A stretch of 64,000 bases of DNA, taken from contig CAIKVT010000029.1 in assembly GCA_903830945.1 (NCBI GenBank), positions 1 through 64,000 on the forward strand, written 5' to 3'. Position 1 is the first letter of the stretch. Each line of letters opens with the position of its first letter. Of the stretch, positions 9,449 to 55,180 are shown piece after piece. Both the position numbers and the translations under genes were made by a program. The DNA is from an uncultured Elusimicrobia bacterium. Lineage in GTDB: Bacteria; Elusimicrobiota; Elusimicrobia; UBA1565; UBA9628. Below the pieces are notes generated by a model. That model had not been told where the DNA came from, searched no databases, and saw only the letters and a program-made list of their open reading frames with translations.

Positions 9449-9818
9449 GATGGATGGGCCTCTCTTTAAGCTGGCGTCTGACCACGACGCTCACGGTACG
9501 CGCGAAACGCAAGGCCCCCGGCTTCTCAACCTCCACTTCCACGGCCTGCACGAGCGGGTCGTCGAGGCAGATCTCCGCCACCCGGCCGGCCAGCCTCTCG
9601 ATGAGCTGATAGGAGGAAGCCTCCACCGCCAGGACGATGCGTTTCTTGATGGCCTTGTAATCAACGGTGTCGCTTAAAAAATCGCTCCGGGAAGCGGCGT
9701 CGAGGTCCGCCTCCATGCGCACCTGGATGACCACGTCCTGCTTCTCGCGGCGCTCCTCGGGATAGACGCCCACGACGCAGCGCAGCTGCAGGTCCTTGAT
9801 GCGGATCTCGTCAGCCAT
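9438..9818 (-). CDS. folB: Dihydroneopterin aldolase
   Basis: The 126-residue protein has the family's opening ([23 protein letters not shown]), the DTVDYKAI motif that includes the conserved Tyr, and [10 protein letters not shown] with the catalytic-region Glu. It releases glycolaldehyde from 7,8-dihydroneopterin to give 6-hydroxymethyl-dihydropterin. It overlaps both neighbours by a few bases, so translation is coupled to the SDR reductase upstream and FolE downstream. Confidence 0.95.
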
Positions 9819-10569
9819 AGACCGCCCCCCGCATGTGCCGGCCGCCGTCCACGAAGATGGTCTGACCGGTCACGAAAGCGCTGCGCGCCAGGAACAGAAC
9901 CGCGTCGGCCACATCGTCGGGACCGCCATGGCGCTCAAGCGGATTGGTGCGCTTGAGGCGCTCCAGATAGGCGTCGTCCTCGCCTGGCGGCGGCAGGATG
10001 AGGCCCGGAGCCACCGCGTTGACCCGCACGTGAGGCGCGAACTCCAGCGCCATCATGCGCGTCAGCGTGGCCAGCAGGCGCTTGCTCAAATGGTAGGCCG
10101 CGTGCTCCGCGTCGTGATCCATGATGCGGCTGTCGAGAAGATTGACGATGCAGCCGCCGCGCCGGGATCGCGCCAGGGCGCGTCCCAGGATGAAAGGCGC
10201 CAGCGCGTTGATGCGGATGTTGCGATCGAGTTCCGCGGGGTCCAGGTCGTCGAGGCGTCCCTGGGGGAAGATGGAGGCGCTGTTGACGAGGATGTCCAGG
10301 CCGCCCCCCGCGCTGCGGCAAGCGCTCGCGAAGAGGGCCTCCGCCTGGGCGGCGTCGCCGAGGTCGGCCTGCTCCACCCAGGCCTGGCGGCCCAGGCCGC
10401 GCAGCTCCTCGGCCAGGGCCTTGGCCTCGGTCAAGGAACCGCGGCAGTGCACGACCACGTCCGCGCCGGCGTGCGCCAGGGTCAGCGCGATGGCGCGGCC
10501 CAGGCGCTTGGCACCGCCCGTGACCAGGGCGGTCTGGCCGAGCAACGGGCGCTCCTTGTCGTCTGTCAT
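9811..10569 (-). CDS. Short-chain dehydrogenase, FolM/pteridine reductase-like
   Basis: The 252-residue SDR has the NADP-binding motif TGGAKRLGRAIA, where the Arg resembles FolM/PTR1-type TGxxxRxG enzymes. It also has NSAS in place of NNAS, an active-site YHLSK (YxxxK) and a C-terminal TGQTIFVDGG. It is first in an operon with folB and folE, which supports a pterin substrate: dihydromonapterin or dihydrofolate reduction is the inferred role. A general SDR function cannot be excluded. Transcription appears to start at the ATG itself (see promoter). Confidence 0.85.
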   Translation of the reverse strand: MTDDKERPLLGQTALVTGGAKRLGRAIALTLAHAGADVVVHCRGSLTEAKALAEELRGLGRQAWVEQADLGDAAQAEALFASACRSAGGGLDILVNSASIFPQGRLDDLDPAELDRNIRINALAPFILGRALARSRRGGCIVNLLDSRIMDHDAEHAAYHLSKRLLATLTRMMALEFAPHVRVNAVAPGLILPPPGEDDAYLERLKRTNPLERHGGPDDVADAVLFLARSAFVTGQTIFVDGGRHMRGAVYG

Positions 10570-10575
10570 CGAGCT

Positions 10576-10604
10576 AGTTTAACAAGTGGGCTTAAGCCCC
10601 GCAA
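10576..10604 (-). promoter_or_regulatory. Leaderless promoter of the folate operon
   Basis: On the minus strand: TTGCGG, 17 nt, then TAAACT preceded by TGT (extended -10 form TGn), then exactly 6 nt before ATG 10569. A start site 7 nt after the -10 box would be the A of the ATG, so the mRNA would have no leader. No Shine-Dalgarno could fit. Confidence 0.6.
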
Positions 10605-11698: not shown

Positions 11699-12112
11699 TC
11701 ACTTCCAACCCATCGGCTTATAGCCCTTGTCCACAAGGCAGTACTCCACGAATTTTCGATGTACCCCTTCCGGGCTGTTGGCTTGGATGGCGCCGCCGAC
11801 CAGGCCCGTGGCCGCGCCCATGGCCGCGCCTTCGCCGATAGCCCGGAAATAGTCCCCGGTGAAAGCGCCGACGATCACGCCCAGAAAAGCGCCGAAGAGG
11901 GCCCCGGCGCCTGTGTGCTTGGCCACGATCTGGCCTTTATGGGACTTGACGAACTCCGTGGCCTTGGCCTCGCAGTCGTCGACGTCCTTCTGTACGGTCT
12001 CCTTAGGCAGGCTCTTGTAGCGGTCGTCCGGATAAAGGGCCACGCGCGGCGTGGCGCAGCCGGCCAGCAACGCGGCCGCGAGGATCATGCCGACTACGGG
12101 GTGACGGTCCAT
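11699..12112 (-). CDS. Glycine-zipper lipoprotein
   Basis: The 137-residue product has a short signal peptide ending in a lipobox (LLAGC). A central glycine-zipper segment (HTGAGALFGAFLGVIVGAFTG, then GAAMGAATGLVGGA) could insert in membrane. Two further cysteines (DDCEAK and EYCLV) may form a disulfide. Such proteins often sit in the outer membrane; the role is unknown. Its promoter places the transcription start at the ATG. Confidence 0.8.
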   Translation of the reverse strand: MDRHPVVGMILAAALLAGCATPRVALYPDDRYKSLPKETVQKDVDDCEAKATEFVKSHKGQIVAKHTGAGALFGAFLGVIVGAFTGDYFRAIGEGAAMGAATGLVGGAIQANSPEGVHRKFVEYCLVDKGYKPMGWK

Positions 12113-12118
12113 AATTCA

Positions 12119-12146
12119 ATGATAGCAGATGACGCTTGGAAATCAA
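12119..12146 (-). promoter_or_regulatory. Leaderless extended -10 promoter of the glycine-zipper lipoprotein
   Basis: Minus strand: TTGATT, 16 nt, then TGC-TATCAT, then 6 nt, then ATG 12112. The 7th base after the -10 box is the A of the start codon. The upstream part overlaps the divergent promoter for the gene at 12177. Confidence 0.65.
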
Positions 12147-12168
12147 GGCCTTACAGAGTTGATAGAAT
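12136..12168 (+). promoter_or_regulatory. Divergent promoter for the membrane protein at 12177
   Basis: An extended -10 TGA-TAGAAT ends 8 nt before ATG 12177, so the leader would be about 1-2 nt. TTGGAA lies upstream at 12136-12141. The two divergent genes share only 64 bp between start codons. Confidence 0.5.
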
Positions 12169-12176
12169 CTAACCCT

Positions 12177-13568
12177 ATGCTGCGCGGCTCGGACCATCGG
12201 ACCCGGCTCCTGATCGCGGCCTTCCTGGCCCTGCTCGGAGTTCTTGCGGCCCTCAAGATGGGCCGCAAGGTGGACAACGACCTATTCTGGCAGCTCAAGG
12301 ATGGCGAACGGGTCGTGCTGGAGCGACATCTGCCCGTAAAGGAAGAATACTCCTTCACCGCCCAAGGCCGCCCCATGGTCGCCATCGAATGGGGCGGGGA
12401 GACCGTGAGCTACCTGGTCTTCCGGCTGGGCGGCTACGGCGCTTTGGTCTGCTTCAACGCGGCCCTGTTCGTGCTTGTCTTCGCCGTGCTTCTTGCCCTG
12501 TTGCGGCGCCGGCTTCCCCTCCTGGAAAGCCTCTGCCTGCTCTCCCTGGCCGCCTTCGCCTTGCTCAATTTCTACGCCGTGCGGTCACAGAACTGGACGT
12601 TCCTGTTCTTCACGCTCTTCCTCTATTGGGCCGCCCTCTGGGAGGACGGGTCGCGGTGGGCTCCCTGGGCCATGGCCGCGGCCATGCTCCCTTGGGTCAA
12701 CCTGCATGCAGGGTTCATGACGGGGCTGGCCATCCTGGGGCTCATTTGCCTGCGCCGCGCCTGGGAGACCCGGCGCCTGGCCGCGCTAGGGCCCCTGGGC
12801 CTGGGGACACTGCTATGCTGCGCGCATCCCAACGGCGTCATGAGCCTGGTCTACCCTGTCTGGTTCATGGCCGCCCCCCCTATCGGCCGAGGCATGATCC
12901 TGGAGTGGAAGCCCGTGGACTTCACGGATAAGACCTCCTCCCCTTATCTCATCATCCTCGCATTATTTTGCTGGCTGGGCCTCTTCAGACTAGGTGGACG
13001 GTTCCCCTGGGTCTTCCTGGCCCTGGTCCTCCTGGCGTTGGCTCTGCGGGGCCGCAAGCTCCTGCCCGAGTTCTCCATGGCCGCCCTCGCTGCCATATCC
13101 ATGAAGCTCCCGATATCGCCGCGCAAGCACGCGCGTCTCGCCCTCATTGCTGGCGCACTCCTGGCGCTGAGCGTGACCGGCCGGGTGATCCTGAGCCGGC
13201 CCTGGCCGCGTCCTTTCGGGGATTGGGAGCGCGGCTATCCTCAGGCCGCGGCGGAGCTCATCGCCTCGCGCTATCCCGGCCAGCGCATATTCCACGACTA
13301 CGATTGGGGCGGTTACCTCATCTACAAGCTCTACCCGCGCAGCCAGGTCTTCATCGACGGCCGCCTCGACCCCTACTGGAGCCTGCTCTGCGGCGACTAC
13401 ATGGCCCTTATCGAGGCCCGCCCCGGCTGGCGCAAGCTCCTCGACGATTACGGCATCACCGTGGCCTTGCTCAGGCCAAGCGGCCTACTATACGGAAAAT
13501 TGAGCCGGGATCCGTCTTGGCAGACGGTCCACGAAGATGAACGCAGCGTCTTGCTGACCAGGAGGTGA
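12177..13568 (+). CDS. Multi-spanning membrane protein, GT-C-like
   Basis: Start is at ATG 12177; an in-frame ATG at 12129 would lie upstream of the promoter -10 box. The product has 463 residues, about 10 hydrophobic helices and a soluble C-terminal domain with FHDYDWGGYLIYKL and VFIDGRLDPY. That tail motif is a known signature of a family of uncharacterised bacterial membrane proteins often grouped near polyprenyl-phosphate-sugar-dependent glycosyltransferases. An early acidic pair (VDNDLFWQLK) would suit a GT-C catalytic loop. Function is not proven. Next gene starts 1 nt after its stop. Confidence 0.78.
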   Translation: MLRGSDHRTRLLIAAFLALLGVLAALKMGRKVDNDLFWQLKDGERVVLERHLPVKEEYSFTAQGRPMVAIEWGGETVSYLVFRLGGYGALVCFNAALFVLVFAVLLALLRRRLPLLESLCLLSLAAFALLNFYAVRSQNWTFLFFTLFLYWAALWEDGSRWAPWAMAAAMLPWVNLHAGFMTGLAILGLICLRRAWETRRLAALGPLGLGTLLCCAHPNGVMSLVYPVWFMAAPPIGRGMILEWKPVDFTDKTSSPYLIILALFCWLGLFRLGGRFPWVFLALVLLALALRGRKLLPEFSMAALAAISMKLPISPRKHARLALIAGALLALSVTGRVILSRPWPRPFGDWERGYPQAAAELIASRYPGQRIFHDYDWGGYLIYKLYPRSQVFIDGRLDPYWSLLCGDYMALIEARPGWRKLLDDYGITVALLRPSGLLYGKLSRDPSWQTVHEDERSVLLTRR

Positions 13569-34748: not shown

Positions 34749-36497
34749 ATGATCAAAGACCCTCGACGATGGCCGGCTTGGCTGCAGGTTTCCTTCGTCT
34801 CAGCCGCTTTCCTCTTCTTTGCCCTGGCTCATATCCGGCGTCCTTTTGGCCAGGAAGACCTGCACTGGTTCGGACCCGCCCGCTCTCTCCAGCTCGGAAA
34901 CGCACCGATGACTTTTGATAACCCGGATGTCGTCTGGGTGGATCATCCTCATTTTTACCTGCGCTGCCTCATTGCCGCGTTCAGATTGTTCGGGATCAGC
35001 GAGGCTTCGGCAAGGATGCCGGGGATCCTCTCCGGCGTCATTGCCATCCTTCTGATTTTCATCATCATCAAAGATTCATCCCCGGACCGGGACCGACCGA
35101 CGGCCTGGGCCTTCCTTTTTGCCCTGCAATACGCCCTGACGCCAGCCGTCGCTGTGGGTTCCATCTACGTAGTGAACGACAATACCGTCCTGGTTCCCGC
35201 CATCACCCTGCTCCTCTATGCCTTCACGCGATTCTCGATCAATGCGACCTGGACTTCGGGTGCCGCTCTCGCGTCCATGACGGCCTTGAGTCTTTGGATC
35301 CGAATCTCAACCCCCCTGGCTATCATCCCCCTCCTCGCGCTGCACACCCTGGCCTTCAACAAAAGCGGGAGAAAGCGGCTATGGGGCATCGGCGCACTGG
35401 CCGCCGGAACCGCCCTCTTCGCGCTCTCCTGGGGACTATACTGCAACATCACCGGGACCTCCTTCGCGAAACCCCTCTCCTATACCTTGGGAGCTATCCT
35501 CTTCAGGGCGCGCGATGCCGCCCCTGGCCAAGGCCCAGCATCGCTGCAGTCCCTCATCTACCTGGTCTTATGGCTGGGGCCGTTCTCCGTCTTATTATTC
35601 ACCCTCGCGGCGGCGCGGAGGGCCGCGGAATTCCTGCGGGACAAAAAGCCGCACATGGAGGATCTCTTTGGCGCCGGTGGGATTTTATTGATGGCGGTTT
35701 ATACCGCGGCCGGCCCCATCTTCGGCTTCCCCCGATATCAAAGCCCGGCTTTCCCGCTGATCTCGATCTTCATGGGCATAGCGCTGTGCCGCTGGGAGAA
35801 ACACCCCGAGCACATCCCTTTAGGCGGGATTGCCGGCGTCGCGCTGGCGGCCTTCGCGATCCAGATCGGGACGCTCCAAGACGTCCTTTATCTACTGCGC
35901 TACACGCTGCGGCATGACGCCGCCGGTATAACCGGCATGCGGCCGGCGCTTAACGCTCTGGCGCTCCGGGGGCTGGCGTTCGCGGCGGCCCACGGTCTCC
36001 TGGCGCTTGTTTATCTGCGCTCCTCTTTCAAGGGCAGACTCCTACCGTTCCTGCTCTGCCTGTCTCTCGGATCCAGCCTGGGGACCGGCTGGCTGCAGCG
36101 AAGCGCCCCCTATTATGTGGGCTACGGCTATGGCGGCCGCGGCACGCTGGAAGCGGCGCGCTATATCGCGGCGCAAGTCCCCGCGCACGGCGTGGTCCTG
36201 GCCCCGGATGAGGTGTTGTTTTACACGGGCCGGTACGAATCCCAATATACCTATACGACGCCGCACAGCTTATGGTCCGACAGGGAGGCGCTCAGGAAAA
36301 GACTGTCGGACGAGCATACGATGGCTTTCGCCTACAGCATCATCACGAACACGGTCGGACAGGTGCGCGCTTATCGAAATGATCCCGGATTCGCTCTCAT
36401 CCTGGCTCGGGATTATGAGCCGAAGGATATCGGCAGTTATACGATCTGGATCAGGAAACATCATGAAAGAAGCAGACAGATGCCGCCTTCCCGTTGA
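34749..36497 (+). CDS. GT39/ArnT-like glycosyltransferase membrane protein
   Basis: Start is ATG 34749, just after the -10 box; an ATG at 34689 precedes the box. The product has 582 residues and about 11 helices. Its first periplasmic loop holds the acidic pattern FGQEDLHWFGPAR, followed by NPDVVWVDHPHFYL. Such loops contain the catalytic Asp/Glu in GT39/GT83 enzymes such as ArnT. A polyprenyl-phosphate sugar donor is expected. It is the first gene of the plus-strand arm. Confidence 0.82.
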   Translation: MIKDPRRWPAWLQVSFVSAAFLFFALAHIRRPFGQEDLHWFGPARSLQLGNAPMTFDNPDVVWVDHPHFYLRCLIAAFRLFGISEASARMPGILSGVIAILLIFIIIKDSSPDRDRPTAWAFLFALQYALTPAVAVGSIYVVNDNTVLVPAITLLLYAFTRFSINATWTSGAALASMTALSLWIRISTPLAIIPLLALHTLAFNKSGRKRLWGIGALAAGTALFALSWGLYCNITGTSFAKPLSYTLGAILFRARDAAPGQGPASLQSLIYLVLWLGPFSVLLFTLAAARRAAEFLRDKKPHMEDLFGAGGILLMAVYTAAGPIFGFPRYQSPAFPLISIFMGIALCRWEKHPEHIPLGGIAGVALAAFAIQIGTLQDVLYLLRYTLRHDAAGITGMRPALNALALRGLAFAAAHGLLALVYLRSSFKGRLLPFLLCLSLGSSLGTGWLQRSAPYYVGYGYGGRGTLEAARYIAAQVPAHGVVLAPDEVLFYTGRYESQYTYTTPHSLWSDREALRKRLSDEHTMAFAYSIITNTVGQVRAYRNDPGFALILARDYEPKDIGSYTIWIRKHHERSRQMPPSR

Positions 36498-36601
36498 AAT
36501 CATAGCCACCGGCGAGGCGCACCCCCGATCATCCTATAGCCAAGCGGGAATTACATAGACTGGGACTCGATAATATGCTATCTTTGCATTATCAATCTCC
36601 T

Positions 36602-37303
36602 ATGGATATTAAATTGAAATCCTTATTACGACTCATCATGGCGTCGGCACTCGTTGGCGCCTCATTGCCCGCTTATGCCCGTGACCCGAGCGCCACGGTG
36701 CATATAGAGAACGCGGACATCACCCATCGTATCTCCCCCGGCGACACCTTGAACATCAATGTCTCGCCAGCCGTGGAATACTCGCGCGAGGTCATCGTCC
36801 AGCCGGACGGCACCATCGACATGCCGATGATCGAGCAGGTCAACACCAAGTCTCTCACCACGACACAGCTTGGCGACCTGTTGATCCAGAAGCTCTCCAA
36901 GTTCGTATCCAAACCCCAGGTCACCGTCAGCATACGAATCTTCGCCTCCCGGATCGTGACCATCGCCGGCGAGATCAATTCGTCCGGGACCTACGAGTAC
37001 AAGGACGGCATGCGCCTGCTGGACCTGCTCATGAAATGCGGCGGGCCCAGAGACAACGCCCGCCTTTCCAAGATCAAGGTCTTCCGCAAGGAAGGCGGCA
37101 AGGTGCGGCGCTTCAACGTGGACTTCGAACGCTTCATATACGGGGACTTCACCGACAACATCGAGCTGCAGCCCTCGGACATGGTCTACGTGCCCACGTT
37201 CTCGCTCGTCAAGGGCGCGCGCTGGCTCAACGACAACCTGGTCCCCTGGTTCACGCTGATCATCCTGGGAACCTCGGTCGCGATCCTAGCGCGCAACCGC
37301 TGA
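36602..37303 (+). CDS. Polysaccharide export protein (Wza-like) with SLBB domain and C-terminal TM
   Basis: Start is ATG 36602: a possible leaderless box TATCAA lies 6 nt before it, and the signal peptide follows directly. ATG 36575 is an alternative. Poly_export (RISPGDTLNINV, VQPDGTIDMPMI) is followed by an SLBB-like module (VTIAGEINSSGTYEYKDG). A single C-terminal helix (WFTLIILGTSVAILA) is unusual for Wza and would anchor the protein in the inner or outer membrane. It probably secretes the polymer made by the following genes. The next gene begins 8 nt later. Confidence 0.9.
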   Translation: MDIKLKSLLRLIMASALVGASLPAYARDPSATVHIENADITHRISPGDTLNINVSPAVEYSREVIVQPDGTIDMPMIEQVNTKSLTTTQLGDLLIQKLSKFVSKPQVTVSIRIFASRIVTIAGEINSSGTYEYKDGMRLLDLLMKCGGPRDNARLSKIKVFRKEGGKVRRFNVDFERFIYGDFTDNIELQPSDMVYVPTFSLVKGARWLNDNLVPWFTLIILGTSVAILARNR

Positions 37304-37311
37304 GCAACGGA

Positions 37312-39153
37312 ATGCTCCCCGAAGCCTCCTTCTACCATTACTGGCTAGTGCTCCGGCGCCGCCGGCACATCCTCATGATGGCGCTTCTGGCGGCGCTGGC
37401 GACTTGCGCCGTGTACATCCATTATCAGCCGACCATCTACCAGGCCAGCGCGCTGCTGCGTCTGGTGCCGCAGAGCTCACAGGAGCAGGCGCAGGGATTG
37501 CCGCCGGTCTCGACCTACGTACGCCAGGAGCTCGAATCAGTCGACGTGGCGCAAAAAGCCGCGCTACGCACGGAGATGGTTTCCCAGACCGCCACGCCAG
37601 CCGACCTCTCCGCCGCGGCCGCCAAAGTCCTGAGCCTCTACACCGCCAGCCCCCCCAATGAGCAGGGGATCATCCGTCTCGACGTCAGGCATAGCGACCG
37701 CATCTTCGCCGCCGAGCTGGCCAACGCCGTGGCTGAGGCATTCGTGGATCAGACCACCGCAGAAGCCACGAATCAGGTGCAGCAGACCCTCAGAACCCTC
37801 GCCAAGCGCACCGAGCAGGTGCAGAAATCCATGGCCATGGCCGAGAAAAACCGCCAGGCTTTCCTGGAGAGCAACACCCCCACATCGACGGCGGAGACTC
37901 TCGCCAACAAGATCGGCGACCTGGAATTCAAGAGGAAGGAGCTCCTCTCCAAATACACGCCGCAGCATCCGGATGTCATCGGGCTGTCGCGGCAACTATC
38001 GGAATTTCGCGCCGAGCTGACCAAGATCCTCGCCCGCGAGACCGAGCTCGCCCACCTCACCCGCGACGTGCGCATCAACGAGGACCTTTTCACCACCCTC
38101 AGCGCGCAGTTAGAGCAGCTGCGCGGCGCTACCAGTTCCATCTCCCCGGTGGCGCAGGTCGCGGACAGCGCCATCCCCCCGCTCTCCCCGATCTCCCCCA
38201 ACATCGAGCGCAGCTATTCCACCTCGGCGGCCCTGGGCCTCATCGTGGGAGTGCTTTTGGTGTTCTTTTTCGAGACCCTCGACCTGTCGATCAGCAACAT
38301 CGAGGAGCTCGAACGATTCATCCAGATGCCGGTAATCGCGATGATCCCGAATTTCTCCCCGCAGGACAACAAATCCAGACTTCCCGCCCTGCTGCGCCGC
38401 TTCATCCATAACAGCGCCGCAGACGGCCGCCCGCTTTCGCTGCTGGCACAATTCCCCAAGACCAAGATCGCCGAGCCCTACCATGCCCTGAGAGCCAACC
38501 TCATCTCCAAAAGGATCCAGCGAGACGAGGGCGTCTCGATCCTCTTCACCTCCTCCAGCAGCAACGAAGGCAAGAGCCTCTGCTCCCTGAACTTCGCCCT
38601 CGCCGCCGCGACTTCTGGCCTCAAAGTCCTGCTGATTGATATGGATATGCGCCGGCCGACGCTGCATCATCTGATGGGCCTAAAAAGGGCCCCGGGCTTT
38701 TCCGACATCGTGGCCGAAAAAGTCACCTGGACGCAAGCCGCGCGAGGCACGGCGCAGTATCTTCTGACCGGGCTCTACCCGGACCAGATCACGTATTATC
38801 CCGGGATAGACAACCTCAAGATCATCACGGCGGGCACGAACGTGGCCAACAAGATGGACGTCTTCGAGAACCTCAAGGTCCCTCAGCTCACCAAAGAATG
38901 GAAGACGCAGTTCGATTTCATCGTCTTCGACACGCCGCCGGTCTTGCTTTTCGTCGACGTCCTCCTGCTCGCGCGAAGCGTAGACCAAGTCGTGCTGCTC
39001 TACGGCGCCGGCAAGGTCACGCGCATGGCGCTCAAGCGCGCCAAAGATCAACTGCAGGGCTTCGCCCGGGACAAGCTGGTCGGCATCGCCATCAACAACC
39101 TGCAGACGACGGACATCGGCGCGCACTACGGCAGCTACTATCGAGGACAGTGA
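37312..39153 (+). CDS. Wzz chain-length regulator fused to BY-kinase (Wzc-like tyrosine autokinase)
   Basis: The 613-residue product has a Wzz domain with two transmembrane helices (about 20-40 and 295-320) and a coiled-coil periplasmic part, then a cytoplasmic BY-kinase. The kinase Walker A is SSSSNEGKS, A' is LLIDMDMRRP and B is FDFIVFDTPP. A C-terminal tyrosine cluster (HYGSYYRG) is the usual autophosphorylation site. It controls chain length and export with the upstream Wza-like protein. No RBS of note. Confidence 0.95.
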   Translation: MLPEASFYHYWLVLRRRRHILMMALLAALATCAVYIHYQPTIYQASALLRLVPQSSQEQAQGLPPVSTYVRQELESVDVAQKAALRTEMVSQTATPADLSAAAAKVLSLYTASPPNEQGIIRLDVRHSDRIFAAELANAVAEAFVDQTTAEATNQVQQTLRTLAKRTEQVQKSMAMAEKNRQAFLESNTPTSTAETLANKIGDLEFKRKELLSKYTPQHPDVIGLSRQLSEFRAELTKILARETELAHLTRDVRINEDLFTTLSAQLEQLRGATSSISPVAQVADSAIPPLSPISPNIERSYSTSAALGLIVGVLLVFFFETLDLSISNIEELERFIQMPVIAMIPNFSPQDNKSRLPALLRRFIHNSAADGRPLSLLAQFPKTKIAEPYHALRANLISKRIQRDEGVSILFTSSSSNEGKSLCSLNFALAAATSGLKVLLIDMDMRRPTLHHLMGLKRAPGFSDIVAEKVTWTQAARGTAQYLLTGLYPDQITYYPGIDNLKIITAGTNVANKMDVFENLKVPQLTKEWKTQFDFIVFDTPPVLLFVDVLLLARSVDQVVLLYGAGKVTRMALKRAKDQLQGFARDKLVGIAINNLQTTDIGAHYGSYYRGQ

Positions 39154-39188
39154 CCGCCGGGCGCTAGGCCGGAGGTGAGGAACACGAG

Positions 39189-40565
39189 ATGAATTGGCCC
39201 CTGGCCGCCACGTTCCTCGCGTCTTTGGCCGCAGCAGCGGCCGGGTTGACCCTGCCCCTCTCCTGGACCATCGCCGCCATCACGGCCGTGACGGCGGCCG
39301 CGATCACCTTCGTCCGGCCCAAAGCCGGCCTGGGCCTGCTCATCTTCTCCATGCTGCTCTCTCCAGAACTGGGCCTCGGGCATGCGGGGTCCCGTCCCAT
39401 CGCGATCCGCGGAGACGACATCCTGCTGGTCATGATCTTCCTGGCCTGGATGGCGCACACCACGCTCAAGAAGGACATGACTTTCCTGCGGACCACCCCG
39501 GCGCATCGGCCCATCTTCCTTTACATGGCCCTCTTCGCCGTATCCACGGGGATAGGCATCCTGCGCGGGGATATCCTCCCGCTGAAAGGGTTCTTTTACG
39601 TCGCAAAATACAGCCAGTACTTCTTCGTCTTCTTCTTGGCTGTCAATCTCACGGACAGCCGGCAGGATGTCCAGCGGGCCTTGCGCTACGCCGCGATCAC
39701 GGCCTTGCTGGTCACGCTCTACGCCTACCAATATCATTACCGAACGGGCGACCGGACCACGGCCCCGTTCGACGACGCGCTCTACGGCATCCGGGATGCT
39801 TCCGAGCCGGGCACCTTGGGCGGCTATTACATCGTCGTCTTCGGGACCATCATGGGACTGGCCACCGAATTGCCGACGGGCGCCCTGCTGGCCGCCGTGG
39901 GCCTTCTGCTGTTCATGTTCCCGGCCTTCCTGCTCACCCTCTCGCGCGCCTCTTACGCCGGCATGGGGGTTTGCGTGTTCTCGGTTTTCTGCCTGGCGCG
40001 GCGCCGCAAGTTCGCGATCGCCTGCGCCGCGTGCCTCGCCTGCGGCTTAGCGCTCTGCAACCCCGCCATCCGCCAGGACACCGCCGCGCGCATCGACGTC
40101 ACCTTCCACGGCGACAAGACACGCCAGCTGCACAACGTCAACCTGTTGGGCTACGATGTCCAGCTGGAGGACTCGGCGGCGCAGCGCGTCTGGGCATGGG
40201 ACCGCATCCTCAACAGGAAATTCCCGCAACATCCTCTGCTGGGCCACGGAGCCACCGGCATCGGCTTCGAGGACACCCAGTACGGCAGCATCCTAGGCGA
40301 GTTCGGCCTGCTCGGGCTGTTGATCTTCGGATGGCTCACGGCCTCCGTGGCGGGCATGGGCCTGCATGCCCTGCATGCGGCGCAGCAGCCCTTGGAACGC
40401 GGTCTAGCCATAGGCCTCGTCTCCGTGCTGGCCGGGCTTTTGACGCACGCTTTCACCGCGAACACCTTCATCATCATCAAGATCATGGAGCCTTTCTGGC
40501 TGTTGGCGGCGCTGGTCGCGGCCATCAGCCGCATCAATTCCACTCCGGATGGAGCTCTGACATAG
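39189..40565 (+). CDS. O-antigen ligase/polymerase-like membrane protein (Wzy/WaaL superfamily)
   Basis: The 458-residue protein has about 11-12 helices. The long periplasmic loop and the motif LLGHGATGIGFEDTQYG (H in GHG) match the O-antigen ligase family (Wzy_C). It could polymerise or attach the glycan. It follows the tyrosine kinase by 35 nt, with GAGGT upstream of the ATG acting as RBS. Confidence 0.88.
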   Translation: MNWPLAATFLASLAAAAAGLTLPLSWTIAAITAVTAAAITFVRPKAGLGLLIFSMLLSPELGLGHAGSRPIAIRGDDILLVMIFLAWMAHTTLKKDMTFLRTTPAHRPIFLYMALFAVSTGIGILRGDILPLKGFFYVAKYSQYFFVFFLAVNLTDSRQDVQRALRYAAITALLVTLYAYQYHYRTGDRTTAPFDDALYGIRDASEPGTLGGYYIVVFGTIMGLATELPTGALLAAVGLLLFMFPAFLLTLSRASYAGMGVCVFSVFCLARRRKFAIACAACLACGLALCNPAIRQDTAARIDVTFHGDKTRQLHNVNLLGYDVQLEDSAAQRVWAWDRILNRKFPQHPLLGHGATGIGFEDTQYGSILGEFGLLGLLIFGWLTASVAGMGLHALHAAQQPLERGLAIGLVSVLAGLLTHAFTANTFIIIKIMEPFWLLAALVAAISRINSTPDGALT

Positions 40566-40605
40566 CCTGGCTTGAATCTTTTCCCGGCCTGCTTCTGGAA
40601 CAACC

Positions 40606-41610
40606 ATGAGAGTCCTCCTAGCCACCTGCCGAAACCCGAACTTTCGCACCATCACGGAACACACCGAGGAAGCCTTGCGGGGCGAAGGCTGCGAAGTGGA
40701 CTTCTTCGACGACCGCGCCTTCCTGCTCCCGGGCCGGGTACGCGAGCGCGCTCCGTTCCTCCAGCGCTGGGAGCTTACCCGCATCAACCGGCTCCTGGTC
40801 GCCAGGGCCCTGGCGACCAGGCCGGACCTCATCCTGGTCATGGGCAACACGCGCGTCTTCGCCCAGACTCTGGAGCAAGCACGGCAAGCCGGGATCAAGA
40901 CCGCCCTGTGGACCATCGACGCACCGCAGAAACACAACATCCCCCATCTCCAGAGAAACGCCCCGCTCTACGATCATGTCTTCTGCGGTGGCACCGAAGC
41001 CCTGGATATCCTGCAGGCCGTGGGATTCCACCGAGCGCGCTGGCTGCCCTTCGGGTTCGCGGCCGACACCCATGCGCCGGCCGTGCCTCTGCCAGAACTG
41101 GCAGGCCTCAACATCTGTTTCATCGGCTCGTATTATCCCATCCGCGAGCGCGTCTTCGAAAGCCTGGCGGACCTCGGCCTGCGCATCTGGGGACCGGGAT
41201 GGGAGAAGATCTCCTCCTCCTCTCCGCTCAAGGGGCTCGCGACTCCGGGGCAGATCAAGGAGGGATTCTGGATGCGGGCCTATGCCTCGGCCAAGATCGT
41301 GCTCTGCGCGCATGACCTGGGCACGTTGACCGCGCCCTGCTATCAGGCCAGCCCGCGAGTGTTCGAGGCCCTGGCCACGGGCTCGTTGCTCCTCTGCAAC
41401 GACCAGAAAGACGTAGCCGCCCTTTTCCAGGACGGCCGACACCTAGTCCTCTACAAGGACGCCGAGGAACTGCGCGAAAAGGCCCGCTATTACCTCGCGC
41501 ATCCTGCCGAGCGCCTACGCATCGCGGAGCAAGGCCGCCAGGCCGTCCTGGCCGGACATTCCTATTCCCACAGGATGAAGACCCTCCTGGCCACGGTGAC
41601 TGCGCCATGA
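40606..41610 (+). CDS. CgeB-type glycosyltransferase
   Basis: The 334-residue product has an N-terminal Rossmann domain (RVLLATCRNPNF), a middle DHVFCGG segment and the C-terminal CgeB-style motif YQASPRVFEALATGSLLLCN. CgeB-type enzymes are GT1/GT4-like (GT-B) transferases of uncertain donor. Its last 4 nt overlap the GT4 gene (ATGA). Confidence 0.88.
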   Translation: MRVLLATCRNPNFRTITEHTEEALRGEGCEVDFFDDRAFLLPGRVRERAPFLQRWELTRINRLLVARALATRPDLILVMGNTRVFAQTLEQARQAGIKTALWTIDAPQKHNIPHLQRNAPLYDHVFCGGTEALDILQAVGFHRARWLPFGFAADTHAPAVPLPELAGLNICFIGSYYPIRERVFESLADLGLRIWGPGWEKISSSSPLKGLATPGQIKEGFWMRAYASAKIVLCAHDLGTLTAPCYQASPRVFEALATGSLLLCNDQKDVAALFQDGRHLVLYKDAEELREKARYYLAHPAERLRIAEQGRQAVLAGHSYSHRMKTLLATVTAP

Positions 41611-42710
41611 GCCGCATCAAGCTCCTCCACATGGTGGAAGACCTGTGCATGGGCGGCCTGGAAAAGGTCGTCTACAACCTCTGCCTGCACATGGACGCGA
41701 CCCGCTTCGACACGCGGGTCTGGTGCCTGACCAAGGGCGGCGTCATGGCGGAGAGGCTCGCGGGCCGCGGCCTGCGCCCCGAGGTCCTGGGCATGGGTCC
41801 CAAGCCGACGCTGCGCTTCGTATGGGACTTGGCCGCGAAGCTGCGCGGCGAGGGCATCCAGATCCTGCACACCCACGGCTACACCGCGGGCGCCGTGGCC
41901 CGAGCCGCAGGCGTGCTGGCCTGGACCCCCCGCATCATCGCGCACGTTCACACCACCTGCGAAATCCTGGAGCCCAAACAGCTCTGGACCGACAGGTTCC
42001 TGAGTTTGTTCACGAACCGGATACTCTGCTGCTCCCAGGCCGTGGCCGATTCCGTGGCTGAGCGGGAGCGCATCCCGCGCCAGAAGCTCCGAGTGGTCTA
42101 CGACGGCACGCCTCGCATGGCCCTGCCCGAAACCGCGGGGTTGCGCCAAAGGCTCGGCATCCCGGAGCGCGACGCGGTCCTGCTGTGCGCCGCTTCTCTG
42201 ACCAGCCACAAAGGGCATAGGTATCTCCTGGACGCGCTGCCCCTGGTGCTCGAAAGATTCCCGAACACGTCTTTGATCCTGGCCGGAGACGGCCCGCTCC
42301 GAACGCAGCTGCAGGAGCAATCCTCTCGCCTGGAAATAGGTCCCAAGGTCATCTTCGCCGGAATATGCCCGGAGATCGGCGAACTGTTAGGCATCACGGA
42401 CATAGCCGTCCTGGCCTCAAGCGAACGGGAAGGGCTGTCCTTGTGGCTGGCTGAGGCCATGTCCGCAGGCAAGCCCCTGGTGGCTCCGTCCTTGGGCGGG
42501 ACCCCCGAGATCCTCATGGATAAAGCCAACGGCCTGCTCGTCCCGCCTCGCGATTCCAGTGCCCTGGCCCGGGCCATCATCGATATCCTGTCCTCTCCAG
42601 CCCTGGCACAGTCCCTGCGCGCCGGCTCCGAACGGATCTACATGGAAAGATTCACGATGGAAGAGATGTCCGCCGCCGTGGCCTCGGTCTACGAGGAGGA
42701 CCATGCCTGA
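41607..42710 (+). CDS. Glycosyltransferase family 4
   Basis: The 367-residue GT-B protein begins HMVEDLCMGGLEKVVYNL (acceptor domain). It has the donor-site signature VLASSEREGLSLWLAEAMSAGKP and the EIL motif following. It is translationally coupled on both sides: the start overlaps the CgeB-type stop by ATGA and its stop lies 7 nt into the next gene. Confidence 0.94.
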   Translation: MSRIKLLHMVEDLCMGGLEKVVYNLCLHMDATRFDTRVWCLTKGGVMAERLAGRGLRPEVLGMGPKPTLRFVWDLAAKLRGEGIQILHTHGYTAGAVARAAGVLAWTPRIIAHVHTTCEILEPKQLWTDRFLSLFTNRILCCSQAVADSVAERERIPRQKLRVVYDGTPRMALPETAGLRQRLGIPERDAVLLCAASLTSHKGHRYLLDALPLVLERFPNTSLILAGDGPLRTQLQEQSSRLEIGPKVIFAGICPEIGELLGITDIAVLASSEREGLSLWLAEAMSAGKPLVAPSLGGTPEILMDKANGLLVPPRDSSALARAIIDILSSPALAQSLRAGSERIYMERFTMEEMSAAVASVYEEDHA

Positions 42711-44907
42711 GCCCTTCCCGGTCCTCTACATCTGCCCCTTCGCTGAGGTGGTCGGCGGCGGGCAGCTCAGCCTGCTCCTGCTCATCGCGAACCTGGACCG
42801 CTCCCGCTATCGCCCCATCATCCTTCTGCCCAGCCCGGGAGAGATGTCCCGCCGCGCCGCCGCGCTCGGTGCGGAGGTGATCATCGAGGACTATCCTGCC
42901 TTGAAGTCGGCCAAGGTCTGGAAGCCGCTCCATTTCGTGCTCCGCCTGACGCTCCTGATCAAAGCCTCCGGGGTCAGGATTGTGCACAGCGACCAGCCGA
43001 ACCTGGCCTTGCTGGCCGCGCTCGCCGCCAGGCTCGCCTCGGCACAGGCCGTGTTCCACGCCCGCACCTGCGAGCGTCACCGGCTCGACTCCTTCCTGCC
43101 CATGCTCCACGACGCGCTGATCTGCGTATCCCGGGCCACTGCCAAGCGCTTCAAAGCCGCCGGGTATCCCCGGCCAGCCGTCATTTACAACGGCGTGGAC
43201 CTGCACCTCTATGCCACGACGGATAAAGCCCAGGCCAAAGCCGGCCTCGGCCTGGCTCCGGACACCCCGGTCTTGGGCTATGCGGGACAGTTCAACCACG
43301 AAAAAGGCCTAGACACCCTCCTGCAAGCTTTCGCACTGGTGCGCAAGGAACTTCCCGGAGCCAGACTCGTCCTTCTGGGCCGGGGCCCGTATGAGCGCGA
43401 GATGCTGGAGCTGGCCGCGAAACTGGGCATCCAGAAGAGCCTCCTGCTCCAGGGATTCACGCAAAAGCCCGAGAGCGTCATCCCGGCCTTCGATATCCTG
43501 CTCTTCCCGACCCGCTGGCCCGAAGGGTTCTCCCGCGTCCTCATCGAGGCCATGGCCTGCGCCGTCCCGGCCGTAGCCTCCGCCTGCGGCGGCAACGTGG
43601 AAGCGGTCAGCGACGGCCGCAACGGCTTCCTCATCCAAGAAGACGAGCCCCGGCTTTACGCGGACAAGGCCTTGCAGCTCCTCCACGACCGAGCGCTCTA
43701 TAACGGGTTCTCGGCCCGAGCAGCGGCCGCGGTCAAAGAGCGTTTCGATGCTCAAGAGACCTCGCGGCATGTGCATGATATCTACGCGGGTCTCCTGGCC
43801 CAGAAGGCCCGCGCGCTGGCCCCGCGACGCCTCTACTTCGGGACCCGGCACGCGCTCCTGCGCATGGGCGCGGCACTGCTACAGAAACGCACGCCGCCCC
43901 AGGCCGTCAAGGGGATATTGGTGGTCAGGAACGACGGCCTGGGAGACCTTGTGCTGTCTCTCCCTTTCCTAGAGAGCCTGCGCCTCTCCCATCCGACCGC
44001 GCGCATCGCCTTGATGTGCCGGCCCGAGTTTATGGACCTGCTGCGCGGCTTGTCCTTGGCCGACCGTCTCATCACATGGGACGGCTCCTGGCTCCGGCTC
44101 CTGCCCGCGCTGCGCAGGGAAGGCTTCGACCTGGCCGTCGACTGCATCAGGGACTCCGCCCTCGACAACGCGCTTGGGTGCCGGGCCAGCGGGGCGCGCT
44201 TCTGCCAGGGCTTCGAATGCGCCGGCCGCGGCCTGCTGCTCGATGCCGCGGTCGCAATCCACGGCCGGAAGCATTTCATAAACGAGATGGGCGACCTGGC
44301 CGCAGCCCTGGGCCTGCGCTTACCGCGGCCAGAGCCGGTCTTGCGGCTGCCGCAGGCATCCCTGAGCCGGGCGCGGACCTTGCTGAGCTCGCGGGGGCTC
44401 CAGCCGCGGGACCGCCTGCTCTTCCTCCACCCGGGAGGCCGCTACCCCAGCCAGCGCTGGCCCTCGGCCCGACTGGCCCGCGCCGCTCTGCAAGCCAGCC
44501 GCGAGCAAGCCTGCAGGGTGATCGTGGCGGCCGGACGCGAGGAATCCGGCGAACTCGCCGAGATGAAGAAGGTCCTGCCGGACGCGGTCTATCTGGAGCA
44601 TCCGGACGTCATGGAGCTGGCCGCGGCCGTAGCCTTAAGCGGGGTCTTCGCCGGGAACAATTCCGGGCCCCTGCATCTGGCCTGCGCCTTGGGCGTGCCC
44701 TCGGTCTCCACGCTGGGACCCACGGACCTCGTGCGCTGGCGACCCCTGGGAGAGGCCTGCGTCGTCTTGGACGCGACGGACTATGGAGCCGGCCGTGAGA
44801 TCGGGCAGATCCCTGAGGCGCCCTTCGCCGCAGCTTTGGCCGGACAGCTTAAAAACGCCAGGACGATGGAAGAAAGAAGCCGGGCCTGCGTAGCGGAGGC
44901 GGACTGA
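42703..44907 (+). CDS. GT4-GT9 fusion glycosyltransferase
   Basis: Start is ATG 42703 (MPEPFPVLYICPFAEVVGGG); upstream in-frame sequence overlaps the previous gene in another frame. The 734-residue product has a complete GT4 module (about 1-370; PTRWPEGFSRVLIEAMAC) followed by a heptosyltransferase-like GT9 module (about 400-730; VVRNDGLGDLVLSLPFL, LHPGGRYPSQRW, AGNNSGPLHLACALG). Normally these are separate enzymes. No frameshift lies between them, so this is a true fusion that may add two successive sugars. Confidence 0.93.
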   Translation: MPEPFPVLYICPFAEVVGGGQLSLLLLIANLDRSRYRPIILLPSPGEMSRRAAALGAEVIIEDYPALKSAKVWKPLHFVLRLTLLIKASGVRIVHSDQPNLALLAALAARLASAQAVFHARTCERHRLDSFLPMLHDALICVSRATAKRFKAAGYPRPAVIYNGVDLHLYATTDKAQAKAGLGLAPDTPVLGYAGQFNHEKGLDTLLQAFALVRKELPGARLVLLGRGPYEREMLELAAKLGIQKSLLLQGFTQKPESVIPAFDILLFPTRWPEGFSRVLIEAMACAVPAVASACGGNVEAVSDGRNGFLIQEDEPRLYADKALQLLHDRALYNGFSARAAAAVKERFDAQETSRHVHDIYAGLLAQKARALAPRRLYFGTRHALLRMGAALLQKRTPPQAVKGILVVRNDGLGDLVLSLPFLESLRLSHPTARIALMCRPEFMDLLRGLSLADRLITWDGSWLRLLPALRREGFDLAVDCIRDSALDNALGCRASGARFCQGFECAGRGLLLDAAVAIHGRKHFINEMGDLAAALGLRLPRPEPVLRLPQASLSRARTLLSSRGLQPRDRLLFLHPGGRYPSQRWPSARLARAALQASREQACRVIVAAGREESGELAEMKKVLPDAVYLEHPDVMELAAAVALSGVFAGNNSGPLHLACALGVPSVSTLGPTDLVRWRPLGEACVVLDATDYGAGREIGQIPEAPFAAALAGQLKNARTMEERSRACVAEAD

Positions 44908-44908
44908 G

Positions 44909-46801
44909 ATGTGCGGGATCTGCGGGTTCGCCGGGTTCCAGGACGAGGGCCTGCTGCGCCGGATGACCGAGCTCCTGAGGCACCGCGGCCCGGACTCCGA
45001 GGGCTTCCACCTCGGCGCGGCCGCCTACTTGGGCATGCGCCGGCTCTCCATCATCGACCTATCCGGAGGCAGCCAGCCCATCTACAGCGAGGACGGCAAG
45101 GTCGCCGTAGTGTGCAACGGCGAGATCTACAACTTCGCCTCCCTGCGCCAAGAGCTGGAGGCCAAGGGCCACGCCTTCAAGACGGACTCGGACACGGAGG
45201 TCATCGTCCACCTTTACGAGGAGGAAGGGGAGGGCTTCCCGCAACGCCTGGAGGGGATGTTCGCCTGCGCCGTTGCCGACGAGCGCAGCGGCCGGCTGCT
45301 GCTGGCGCGCGACCCGGTGGGCATCAAGCCGCTGTATCACTGCGCCGCCCCCGGCGGAGGCATCCTCTTCGCCTCCGAAATGAAGAGCCTGCTCCAGGCG
45401 CCCTTCGTACGGCGCGAGATCGACCCGGCGGCGCTCGACGCCTACCTCCGCTATCTCTACGTCCCGGAGCCGCTGGCGATATTCAAAGGGATCTCCAAGC
45501 TCCCGGCCGGGCACGTCCTCGTCCGTGAACCCGGCCGCGACCTCCGGGTCAGGAAGTACTGGGAGCTCAAGAAGCTCTCGAAAGTCCCGGGCGCGGGCCC
45601 GGAGCGCGAGGAGGCCCTCTCCGCGCTTCTGGGCGCGACCGTCAAGAGCCACCTCATGAGCGACGTGCCCTTGGGCGTATTCCTGAGCGGCGGCCTGGAC
45701 TCGGGCGCGGTCACCGCGCTCATGGCGCGCGCCGGAGCCCGGATCCGGACCTTCTCCATCGGCTTCGCCGACGCCGCGGAGCGCTCCTACAACGAGCTCG
45801 GCCTCGCCGCCCTCGTGGCCGACCGCTTCGGCGCCGCGCACACTGAGATCGAGGTCTCGCCCGACGCCGCGGACCTTATACCCAAGATCGCCTGGCATTT
45901 CGACGAGCCCCACGCCGACTCCAGCGCCGTGGTCACCTGGCTGATCTGCCGGGAGGCGGCCAAGAGCATCAAGGTGGCTCTGACCGGCATCGGCGGCGAC
46001 GAGGTCTTCGGCGGCTATCCGCGCTATATGGGGGCGCGCGCCGCCGGGCTCTACCGCGGCCTGCCCCTGGCGCTGCGGCAGGCCGCGGCCGGCGCAGCCG
46101 CCCGCCTGCCCGAGACCGGGGCCAGCCGGGATTGGCTCAATTGGGCCAAGCGCTTCGCCCGCGGCGGCGCGCAGGATGAGTTTGGCTGCTACGATTCCTG
46201 GACCCGGGCCGCTGACCGAGGCCTGCTCGACGGGCTCTACTCCAAGGACATGAAAGCCTCGCTTAACGAAGACGCGACCGAGGCGCAGCGGCGGGCCTTC
46301 TACCTTGAGGCGGGCTCGGAGGACGTGGTAGACCGCGCCCAGTACCTGGACTTCAAGACCTATCTCCCGGGCGACCTCCTGATGATGGCGGACAAGATGA
46401 GCATGGCCAGCTCCTTGGAACTGCGCGTGCCCCTGTGCGACCGGAAGCTGGCCGAATTCATGTATTCTCTGCCTCCGGAGGAGCGCGTCGGGGCAGGGTC
46501 CCTGAAGTCGCTGCTGCGCCGCGTACTGCGGCCCATCCTGCCGCCGCAGGTCCTGGCGGCGCGCAAACAGGGATTCATGATCCCGCTTCCCCTCTGGCTC
46601 AAAGGCCGCTGGCTGCCCTGGGCGCGCGAGCTGCTCTCGCCGCAGACCGTGAAGAGACGAGGCTGGTTCGACCCCGCTGCGGTCGCGCGGTTGCTCGACG
46701 AGCATGTCTCTTCCCACCACGGCCGCGCCGACCTGATCTGGGCGCTGATGATGCTCGAGGCCTGGCAGAGGGTCTATATCGATGAATTCAAACCCATCTA
46801 A
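44909..46801 (+). CDS. asnB: Glutamine-hydrolysing asparagine synthase-like amidotransferase
   Basis: The 630-residue protein has an N-terminal class II glutaminase starting MCGICGF (Cys2 nucleophile) and a synthetase domain with the PP-loop SGGLDSGAV. In glycan and exosortase-type EPS loci AsnB paralogues act on surface-polymer substrates rather than free Asp. Starting 1 nt after the GT4-GT9 gene supports a glycan role. A housekeeping asparagine synthetase cannot be excluded. Confidence 0.93.
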   Translation: MCGICGFAGFQDEGLLRRMTELLRHRGPDSEGFHLGAAAYLGMRRLSIIDLSGGSQPIYSEDGKVAVVCNGEIYNFASLRQELEAKGHAFKTDSDTEVIVHLYEEEGEGFPQRLEGMFACAVADERSGRLLLARDPVGIKPLYHCAAPGGGILFASEMKSLLQAPFVRREIDPAALDAYLRYLYVPEPLAIFKGISKLPAGHVLVREPGRDLRVRKYWELKKLSKVPGAGPEREEALSALLGATVKSHLMSDVPLGVFLSGGLDSGAVTALMARAGARIRTFSIGFADAAERSYNELGLAALVADRFGAAHTEIEVSPDAADLIPKIAWHFDEPHADSSAVVTWLICREAAKSIKVALTGIGGDEVFGGYPRYMGARAAGLYRGLPLALRQAAAGAAARLPETGASRDWLNWAKRFARGGAQDEFGCYDSWTRAADRGLLDGLYSKDMKASLNEDATEAQRRAFYLEAGSEDVVDRAQYLDFKTYLPGDLLMMADKMSMASSLELRVPLCDRKLAEFMYSLPPEERVGAGSLKSLLRRVLRPILPPQVLAARKQGFMIPLPLWLKGRWLPWARELLSPQTVKRRGWFDPAAVARLLDEHVSSHHGRADLIWALMMLEAWQRVYIDEFKPI

Positions 46802-47795
46802 GATCCTGGTGGTCCTCTCCGCGGGCCTGGGCGATTTCCTCATCGCTGTACCAGCGCTCAAGGCCCTGCGGCGGCGCTACCCAGCGGCACGGATCACCCT
46901 GGCGGTCTCCTCCAAGACCCTGAGCTACGCGCAACGCTGCCCGGACGCGAACCGCGTCGTGGCCTTGGATGCTTTCCACCTATTCTCCCCCGCCGCCGCC
47001 AAGCAGCTGCGGCTCATCTGCGAACTGCGCGCCGAACGCTTCGACCTGGCGCTCAACCTCTACGAGATCAGCACTTTCGCGGGGATGCTCAAGATGCGCG
47101 CCCTATTCGCGGCCATCTCCCCGGCGCTCTGCGCGGGCCGGGACACGGATGGCCGGGGCTCCTTCTACGATATCCGCTCCCCGGACTCTCCCGCCGACGG
47201 CGCAGACCACGGCGAACATTACTCCCGCCTGGTGGACTTGCTGGGCTGCCAGACGCGGCCGCAGGACAAAGCCGCGCTCTGGATCAACGCGGACGCTCGC
47301 CAGGCCGCGGAAGACTTCTTGAGCGCGAACCAGGCCCGGCCCGGAGAGGCCTTCCTGGGGATCCACCCGGGCTCGGCGCGCCGCTCCAGGCATTGGCTGC
47401 CCGGGCGCTTCGCTCAAACCGCGGACGCCCTCTCCCGAAGCTGCGGCCTGCGCGTCGTCATCCTCGGCGGGGCCGGCGAGGCCGGCCTGGCGGAGGAAGT
47501 GGCCTCCCTCATGGAGCACAATCCACTGCTCAGCGCCGGGAAGCTCAGCTTCGAGTCCTCTCTAGCCCTGATCCAACGCCTGCGCCTACTCATCTGCACG
47601 CACAGTAGCCTCATGCACGCGGCCAACGCCTTCAGCGTCTCCTTCGTGGCCCTGCAGGGCATCAGCGACATGCGCCGGGACGGCCCCTATCAACCGGCGC
47701 CCGGGCGCTATGTCGTGATCCACACAAAGAACCTGCGGACGCTCGAATCTGACGAAGTCATCGCGGCCGGTCTGGAGCTCCTCAAGAATGGCTGA
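46782..47795 (+). CDS. Glycosyltransferase family 9 (heptosyltransferase-like)
   Basis: The 337-residue product opens with a Rossmann start (SKILVVLSAGLGDFLIAVPALKAL) and has LGIHPGSARRSRHWLP, LICTHSSLMHAANAFSVSFVAL at the C-terminus, the latter matching the GT9 ADP-heptose-type site (with THS instead of the usual NDSG). It overlaps asnB by 20 nt and the following GT4 by 8 nt. Confidence 0.9.
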   Translation: MNSNPSKILVVLSAGLGDFLIAVPALKALRRRYPAARITLAVSSKTLSYAQRCPDANRVVALDAFHLFSPAAAKQLRLICELRAERFDLALNLYEISTFAGMLKMRALFAAISPALCAGRDTDGRGSFYDIRSPDSPADGADHGEHYSRLVDLLGCQTRPQDKAALWINADARQAAEDFLSANQARPGEAFLGIHPGSARRSRHWLPGRFAQTADALSRSCGLRVVILGGAGEAGLAEEVASLMEHNPLLSAGKLSFESSLALIQRLRLLICTHSSLMHAANAFSVSFVALQGISDMRRDGPYQPAPGRYVVIHTKNLRTLESDEVIAAGLELLKNG

Positions 47796-48990
47796 GCCAA
47801 GGTTGAAGGTCATCCAGGTCATCACCCGGCTGGAAGCGGGCGGCTCCTCCGCGAACACCTTGGCTTGCGCGCGCTCCATCTCGGAGCGATTCGACTCCAT
47901 GCTCATCTGCGGAGTCCCGGAGGCTCAGGGCGCTCCCTGCGAAAGCGCCGGAGGCGTGCGGCTATTGGAGATCAAGCAGCTGAAGCGATCCATCAGTCCC
48001 CTGGATGACCTCAAGGCATTCAGGAGCCTGCTCGCCGCGTACCGGCGCGAGAAGCCGGACATCGTCCACACCCACACCTCCAAAGCGGGGATACTGGGAC
48101 GATGGGCGGCCTGGGCCTACAACCGGACCGCGGACAAGCCCTGCCTCATCATCCATACCCCGCACGGCCATGTCCTGTTCGGCTATTTCGGCTCCTGGAA
48201 GACCTGGGTCTTCGCAGCGGCCGAGCGCCTGACCGCCCGGGTCACGGACAGACTGGTGGCGCTCTCCCAAGGCGAGATGCAGGAAAGCCAGCAAGCCGGC
48301 ATAGGCCTTCCGCGGCAATGGTCCGTCATCCCCAGCGGCATCACATTCCCCTCCCAGATGGAGATCGGACTGTGTCGCGAACGCGGCCACGGCTTGCGGG
48401 CGGCCCTGGGCCTGGCGCCAGAGCAGACCGTCATCGGCACGGTCGCGCGGCTGGAACCGGTCAAAGGCGTGCGATATCTCATCGCGGCCGCGCCCTCCGT
48501 GCTACGCGCCGCGCCCCAGGCGCGCTTTCTCGTGGTCGGAGACGGTGCGCTGCGGCATCAGCTGGAGAACCTCGCCCGCAGGTTGGGCGTGGCGGAGCAG
48601 ACGATCTTCACCGGCCACAAAGACCACCCCCTGGACTGGATGGCGGCCATGGACGTCTACGTCCAGCCCTCCCTCAACGAAGGCCTGGGGCGCACATTGG
48701 TAGAGGCGGCCGTCCTCGGCCTGCCCGCCGTGGCGAGCCGGGTCTGCGGCATACCGGACATCGTCAGGCACGGCCGCACGGGCTTGCTGGTGCCGCCGGG
48801 AGACCCGGCGGCCCTGGCCGAAGCGGTCTGCCGCCTGGCCGCAGACCCACACCTGCGGCAGGAATTGGGCGCAGCCGCGCGCGCACACGTGCTGAGCCCG
48901 GATGAGAACGGCCTGCCGCGGTTCTCGGCCGATGCCATGATCATACAGTTGGAACAGCTCTATGGATATTCCATCCCGAACCATGCTTAG
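47788..48990 (+). CDS. Glycosyltransferase family 4
   Basis: The 400-residue GT-B protein has IQVITRLEAGGSSANTLACARS at the start, HTHTSKAGILGRWAAW and donor-site VYVQPSLNEGLGRTLVEAAVLGLPAVAS. This N-terminal pattern is typical of WcaL/PelF-like GT4 enzymes. Its 3' end overlaps the PHP-like gene by 29 nt. Confidence 0.93.
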   Translation: MAEPRLKVIQVITRLEAGGSSANTLACARSISERFDSMLICGVPEAQGAPCESAGGVRLLEIKQLKRSISPLDDLKAFRSLLAAYRREKPDIVHTHTSKAGILGRWAAWAYNRTADKPCLIIHTPHGHVLFGYFGSWKTWVFAAAERLTARVTDRLVALSQGEMQESQQAGIGLPRQWSVIPSGITFPSQMEIGLCRERGHGLRAALGLAPEQTVIGTVARLEPVKGVRYLIAAAPSVLRAAPQARFLVVGDGALRHQLENLARRLGVAEQTIFTGHKDHPLDWMAAMDVYVQPSLNEGLGRTLVEAAVLGLPAVASRVCGIPDIVRHGRTGLLVPPGDPAALAEAVCRLAADPHLRQELGAAARAHVLSPDENGLPRFSADAMIIQLEQLYGYSIPNHA

Positions 48991-51045: not shown

Positions 51046-51046
51046 C

Positions 51047-54790: not shown

Positions 54791-55180
54791 CTAACCTTTA
54801 TGTCTGAGGATGTGGGCGATGTGTCCCGCCAGATTCCTATAGTCAAAGGGCTTGGCCACGAAGAGTCGGTCTTGAGTGGCGAACGCAAAGAGATCGTGCA
54901 TCTCTTTGCGCCCGGTCATGATGATCACTGGCACTTGTTTCGTCCACTCGGTTTTGTAGAGATGGGAATTGACTGTGTATCCATCGACGTGGGGCATTAC
55001 GACGTCCAGCAAGACAAGGTCGGGAAGCTCCACCCGGGGATTCTCCGGCTCCAGGCCCAGCACCCGCAGGGCCTCGGCTCCGTCGTGGGCAACGCTGACG
55101 CGATGGCCCTCACCTTGCAAGGCTACCTGAAGGAGTTTGACAATATCCAGATCGTCGTCGACAATTAGTATATGCGCCAC
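54791..55180 (-). CDS. Single-domain response regulator (CheY-like)
   Basis: The 129-residue product is a receiver domain only: acid pocket VDDDLD, phospho-acceptor in LVLLDVVMP, MTGR (Thr/switch) and VAKPFD (Lys). It has no DNA-binding domain. GTG start at 55180 lies 6 nt after a strong promoter, so the mRNA should be leaderless. No kinase is in the window. It converges on the WecA-type gene. Confidence 0.9.
   Translation of the reverse strand: MAHILIVDDDLDIVKLLQVALQGEGHRVSVAHDGAEALRVLGLEPENPRVELPDLVLLDVVMPHVDGYTVNSHLYKTEWTKQVPVIIMTGRKEMHDLFAFATQDRLFVAKPFDYRNLAGHIAHILRHKG

Follow-up and report, generated by a model that had tools for sequence, protein, structure and literature searches.

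Comparative analysis of an uncultured Elusimicrobia bacterium and its relatives makes it very likely that about 14 to 18% of the genes at the head of transcription units are transcribed in leaderless or nearly leaderless form, beside genes with Shine-Dalgarno (SD) sites. The starting point was a window of 64,000 nucleotides (positions 1 to 64,000 of contig CAIKVT010000029.1, to which all coordinates below refer), in which a preliminary description had read several -10 boxes lying just before start codons as evidence of leaderless transcription. That interpretation is supported by the enrichment of such boxes at one spacing across the genome, their restriction to unit-first genes, the -35 and TG elements that accompany them, and their conservation across species.

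Spacing and anatomy of the boxes across the genome

The genome comprises 3.24 Mb in 84 contigs, of which we sampled 1.02 Mb (the stretches read have about 62% GC). A home-made gene finder that relied solely on coding potential and ignored upstream motifs yielded 432 genes able to head a transcription unit (unit-first genes) and, for comparison, 336 operon-internal genes. Upstream of the unit-first genes, the motif TANNNT is infrequent at spacers of 0 to 5 nt from the start codon (7, 8, 4, 3, 4, and 5 occurrences, respectively), rises steeply at 6 nt (33 occurrences), and falls through 24, 19, and 18 occurrences at 7, 8, and 9 nt to a background near 8 to 9. At the spacer of 6 nt, the 33 of 432 genes compare with a background of 7.7 (Poisson P = 1.4e-11) and with only 6 of the 336 operon-internal genes (Fisher P = 1.2e-4), among which no further spacer class was seen. 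The preliminary description had proposed genome-wide enrichment at 6 nt as the check on its reading, and this enrichment is present, with a sharp edge at 6 nt and in unit-first genes only. Such a lower edge is expected from promoter geometry if RNA synthesis, which begins about 7 nt past the box, is barred from starting inside the gene.

Contigs fetched after the first count repeated the peak (8/101 at spacer 6). Some contigs of the first batch had been chosen for a match to TATAATN6ATG, which introduces a small bias that is absent from these held-out contigs and from G085, a genome of the same genus (0.89 Mb examined). In G085 the count rises from 5 at spacer 5 to 43 of 398 unit-first genes at spacer 6 (background, 4.7; P = 2e-26), with 4 of 313 operon-internal genes at the latter position. 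The same step, from 3 to 13 of 118 genes, is seen in G025 (46% GC), a genome of the same class but of a distant family (operon-internal genes, 1/66); no spacer peak was found in G053, from another family of that class (37% GC). For the two same-genus genomes, the excess at 6 to 9 nt corresponds to 13.7% and 17.6% of the unit-first genes and to 7.7% and 9.9% of the full gene set. As a separate observation on the stretches read, the base at position -1 of start codons is C in 40 to 45% of genes; among unit-first genes that have a gap or a divergent neighbor upstream, just 9% have A there.

The sequences flanking the boxes were analyzed in 76 spacer-6 cases selected on TANNNT alone. An extended -10 element emerges from them without having been imposed, with T at position -15 in 70% and G at -14 in 57%; position -18 is A-rich, A occurs at -9 in 61% and at -8 in 66%, and there is a bias toward TTG at the -35 position. 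In the genome under study, a TTG lies at 17 to 18 nt from 14 of the 57 boxes at 6 to 7 nt, compared with 11 of 326 control genes (P = 7e-7), and in G085 the corresponding counts are 15/67 and 4/299 (P = 5e-9). Since the TG and the TTG at 17 to 18 nt were both unimposed, the boxes look in their anatomy like real sigma-70-type promoter elements.

The proposal that two modes occur in one genome likewise held, in that SD-like 4-mers precede 34 to 53% of the other genes. These 4-mers are depleted before the near-box genes, and a masked control showed this to be due largely to the -10 box filling the space. Because the box occupies that space, the depletion is not independent evidence, and it was dropped as support for the leaderless mode. 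The 16S gene was not found in this assembly; Elusimicrobia are listed as having an anti-SD sequence of the classical CCUCC type (PMC10783764).

Probable promoters in the window and their conservation

Direct reading of the three main boxes of the window, all on the minus strand, confirmed the spacer of exactly 6 nt to the start codon that had been claimed for each, together with a TGn extension and a TTG-type -35 box at 16 to 18 nt. Upstream of a glycine-zipper lipoprotein gene (11699-12112), the order is TTGATT-16-TATCAT (with TGC) followed by TGAATT-ATG, in which the -35 box occupies 12141-12146, the TGC extension 12125-12127, the -10 box 12119-12124, and the start codon 12110-12112, its A being the predicted transcription start. 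The promoter of a short-chain dehydrogenase gene (9811-10569) reads TTGCGG-17-TAAACT (with TGT), then AGCTCG-ATG (-35 box, 10599-10604; TGT, 10582-10584; -10 box, 10576-10581; ATG, 10567-10569), and that of a response-regulator receiver gene (54791-55180) reads TTGACT-18-TACAAT (with TGT), then CATTAT-GTG (-35 box, 55211-55216; TGT, 55193-55195; -10 box, 55187-55192; GTG, 55178-55180), the GTG having no upstream in-frame start. A systematic scan of the window genes, with alternative starts allowed, located nine places with TANNNT 5 to 9 nt before a start, among which only the three main boxes combine a TG extension with a -35-like match. The family matches of the lipoprotein fall just under the curated cutoffs, and its signal peptide, MDRHPVVGMILAAALLAGC, is a better fit with the start at 12112 than with the ATG at 12088.

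The weaker cases that had been listed beside these fared unevenly. As described, a plus-strand TAGAAT with a TGA extension (12163-12168) lies 8 nt before the ATG (12177-12179) of a divergent membrane-protein-like gene (12177-13568), which matched no Pfam family and whose same-genus orthologue has its box at 7 nt. The RNA of this gene would carry a leader of about 2 nt, which makes it a plausible near-leaderless divergent partner of the lipoprotein gene. The other two did not stand: the TATCAA before 36602 does not fit TANNNT, and the TATCAT before 34749 is separated from the ATG by 10 nt and from an in-frame GTG by 4 nt. The start codons of the divergent pair are separated by 64 bp (12113-12176), and their back-to-back promoters lie at 6 nt and 8 nt. 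Close divergent neighbors are generally rich in such boxes: where 20 to 90 bp separate divergent starts, a box at 6 to 8 nt was counted in 14/42 and 20/48 genes. Farther along the window (34749-54744), a gene for a PMT_2-type glycosyltransferase adjoins one for polysaccharide export (Poly_export/SLBB) at the head of a long same-strand run, which is probably an exopolysaccharide cluster.

Orthologue pairs between this genome and G085 were taken as reciprocal best hits (median identity, 83%). Of the pairs with the box at 6 to 7 nt, 13 of 16 retain the TANNNT spacing, versus 10 of 39 with the box at 10 to 30 nt, and one of the "lost" pairs in the former group has the box at 7 nt in one genome and at 6 nt in the other. 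From these pairs, and from the lipoprotein orthologues below, the spacing of the box appears to be under selection between species. Across 17 orthologous loci of the lipoprotein gene, drawn from the order and including that of the window, with identities reaching down to about 40%, the box lies at 6 nt in ten and at 5 nt in three. Its letters vary (TATCAT, TATTAT, TATGAT, TAAACT, TAAGCT, TATACT, and TATCCT), the -35 forms include TTGACC or TGGACA, and the start codon at 12112 is kept.

The best relatives of the dehydrogenase come from Elusimicrobia metagenome assemblies (75 to 81% identity). L139 (87% identity) and L142/L062 (75%) retain TAAACT-6-ATG although the letters of the spacer differ, and a TTGC at 17 nt persists in L139 and L142; L144 has TATCAT-6-ATG, and L140, L141, and L143 have no box at 6 nt. 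The presence of the box in some orthologues and its absence from others indicate that the mode can be exchanged. The L140 and L141 orthologues, which are from the same genus (79 to 81% identity), have no near box, and L141 has GGGAGGAG upstream instead, a replacement that suggests a switch between the leaderless and SD modes.

Proposed mechanism and alternative readings

From the observed positions, enrichment, promoter anatomy, conservation, and class-wide occurrence of the boxes, we infer the transcription start and the mode of translation as follows. The boxes would belong to ordinary housekeeping promoters of the sigma-70/sigma-A type, placed so that 6 (to 9) nt separate the last T of the -10 box from the start codon. 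RNA polymerase, starting about 7 nt past that T, would then initiate on the first base of the start codon (A or G) or up to about three bases ahead of it. The mRNA would then have neither a leader nor an SD site, and, by analogy with leaderless mRNAs elsewhere, the initiator tRNA on the ribosome would directly recognize the 5'-terminal AUG or GUG. The mode would serve about 14 to 18% of unit-first genes (8 to 10% of all genes), and the remaining genes, including the operon-internal ones, would have leaders with SD sites or other signals. Given the spread over 6 to 9 nt, some RNAs would have leaders of 1 to 3 nt, and for single genes extra upstream promoters may give a leadered RNA.

The same boxes could be real promoters attached to wrongly placed start codons, such that translation begins at a later in-frame codon behind an ordinary leader. 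Start prediction is uncertain, and the gene finder itself chose 12088 over 12112, but misplaced starts would not leave boxes and start codons in register to 1 nt in each of three species. Moreover, the receiver domain enters its first strand directly after GTG 55180, the charged residues at the N terminus are required in the lipoprotein, and orthologous N termini (L139, L142, and L169) align from the chosen start codon, so that we regard this reading as very unlikely. We give still less credence to the view that the AT-rich box is a translation signal, acting near the start through S1 protein binding or an unfolded RNA, rather than a promoter. An AT-rich bias before starts can indeed arise from translation-related signals (Nakagawa et al., PMC5397173), but this box is missing from operon-internal genes and is marked by a TG, a -35 element at 17 to 18 nt, and an exactly kept spacing. 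Least probable of all, to the point of being negligible, is that chance accounts for boxes picked by eye in one window; the failure of two of the three weaker cases would fit such an origin, but it is refuted by the genome-wide P of about 1e-11, repeated in the held-out contigs and in G085.

Distribution in the phylum and relation to known systems

Across 150 genomes of the phylum, we compared the count of TATAATN6ATG with the mean of the counts at N4 and N5, spacers that were chosen as the control because a reversed-pattern control is biased by composition. The 71 genomes of the same class as the window's genome have a median ratio of 2.84, with 50 above 2 and a median excess of 30 sites per genome, versus a median ratio of 0.93, none above 2, and a median excess of -2 in the 79 genomes of other classes; the absolute excess is reported because AT-rich genomes dilute the ratio. 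The P value of about 3e-21 for this contrast is overstated, since members of one family are not independent, and the pattern by family is the safer statement. Two families of the class, f6 and f9, lack the excess, and 17 genomes of other phyla gave a pooled count of 342 against 429 expected in this single-word test, which is weak in GC-rich genomes. The class with the excess would be Elusimicrobia proper. We somewhat favor the view that this one Elusimicrobiota class, in large high-GC genomes and in a small-genome family alike, uses leaderless transcription as a permanent mode throughout the lineage, a mode that is absent from the other classes of the phylum and was unreported before. Its presence in one class and absence from the others would imply a gain or a loss inside the phylum.

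A little-studied and mostly uncultured class would thereby join the bacteria with large-scale leaderless transcription, and the contrast within one phylum, between a class with the mode and others with no sign of it, offers a setting for asking how it is gained or lost. Closely spaced divergent genes would share compact back-to-back promoters, and gene finders that expect an SD site may misplace starts in such genomes.

The arrangement is of a known type, apparently undocumented in this phylum: no published report of leaderless transcription in it was found in the main texts of the openly accessible papers searched. The preliminary description had considered leaderless genes not usual outside a few phyla, which is too strong, since leaderless transcription is predicted for 21.6% of bacterial species (Lomsadze et al. 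2018, as cited in PMC9581028). A TANNNT about 12 bp upstream of starts marks bacterial leaderless genes, found in 207 of 953 bacterial genomes (Zheng et al. 2011, PMC3160421). In these TA-led genes, from Actinobacteria and others, the first T of TANNNT lies about 12 bp upstream with a spacer of about 6, as here, and they likewise occur in high-GC genomes with SD-led genes mixed in; the text of that study does not name this phylum, although its "Other Bacteria" (8/20 genomes) may include a member. Mycobacterium tuberculosis, in the account of Cortes et al. (2013, PMC3898074), also has leaderless beside leadered genes, with transcription starts mapped genome-wide, whereas here the arrangement is known from sequence alone. 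In Deinococcus-Thermus, transcript and reporter assays traced leaderless expression to a -10 motif placed 6 to 7 bp ahead of the ORF (Zhong et al. 2025, PMC12340547). That is a different phylum, with about 30% of ORFs in the -10-motif group compared with the 8 to 10% of genes estimated here from genomic sequence only, but the two systems agree in a -10 box about 6 to 7 bp upstream of the ORF and in its coexistence with a class of genes that carry a ribosome-binding-site motif.
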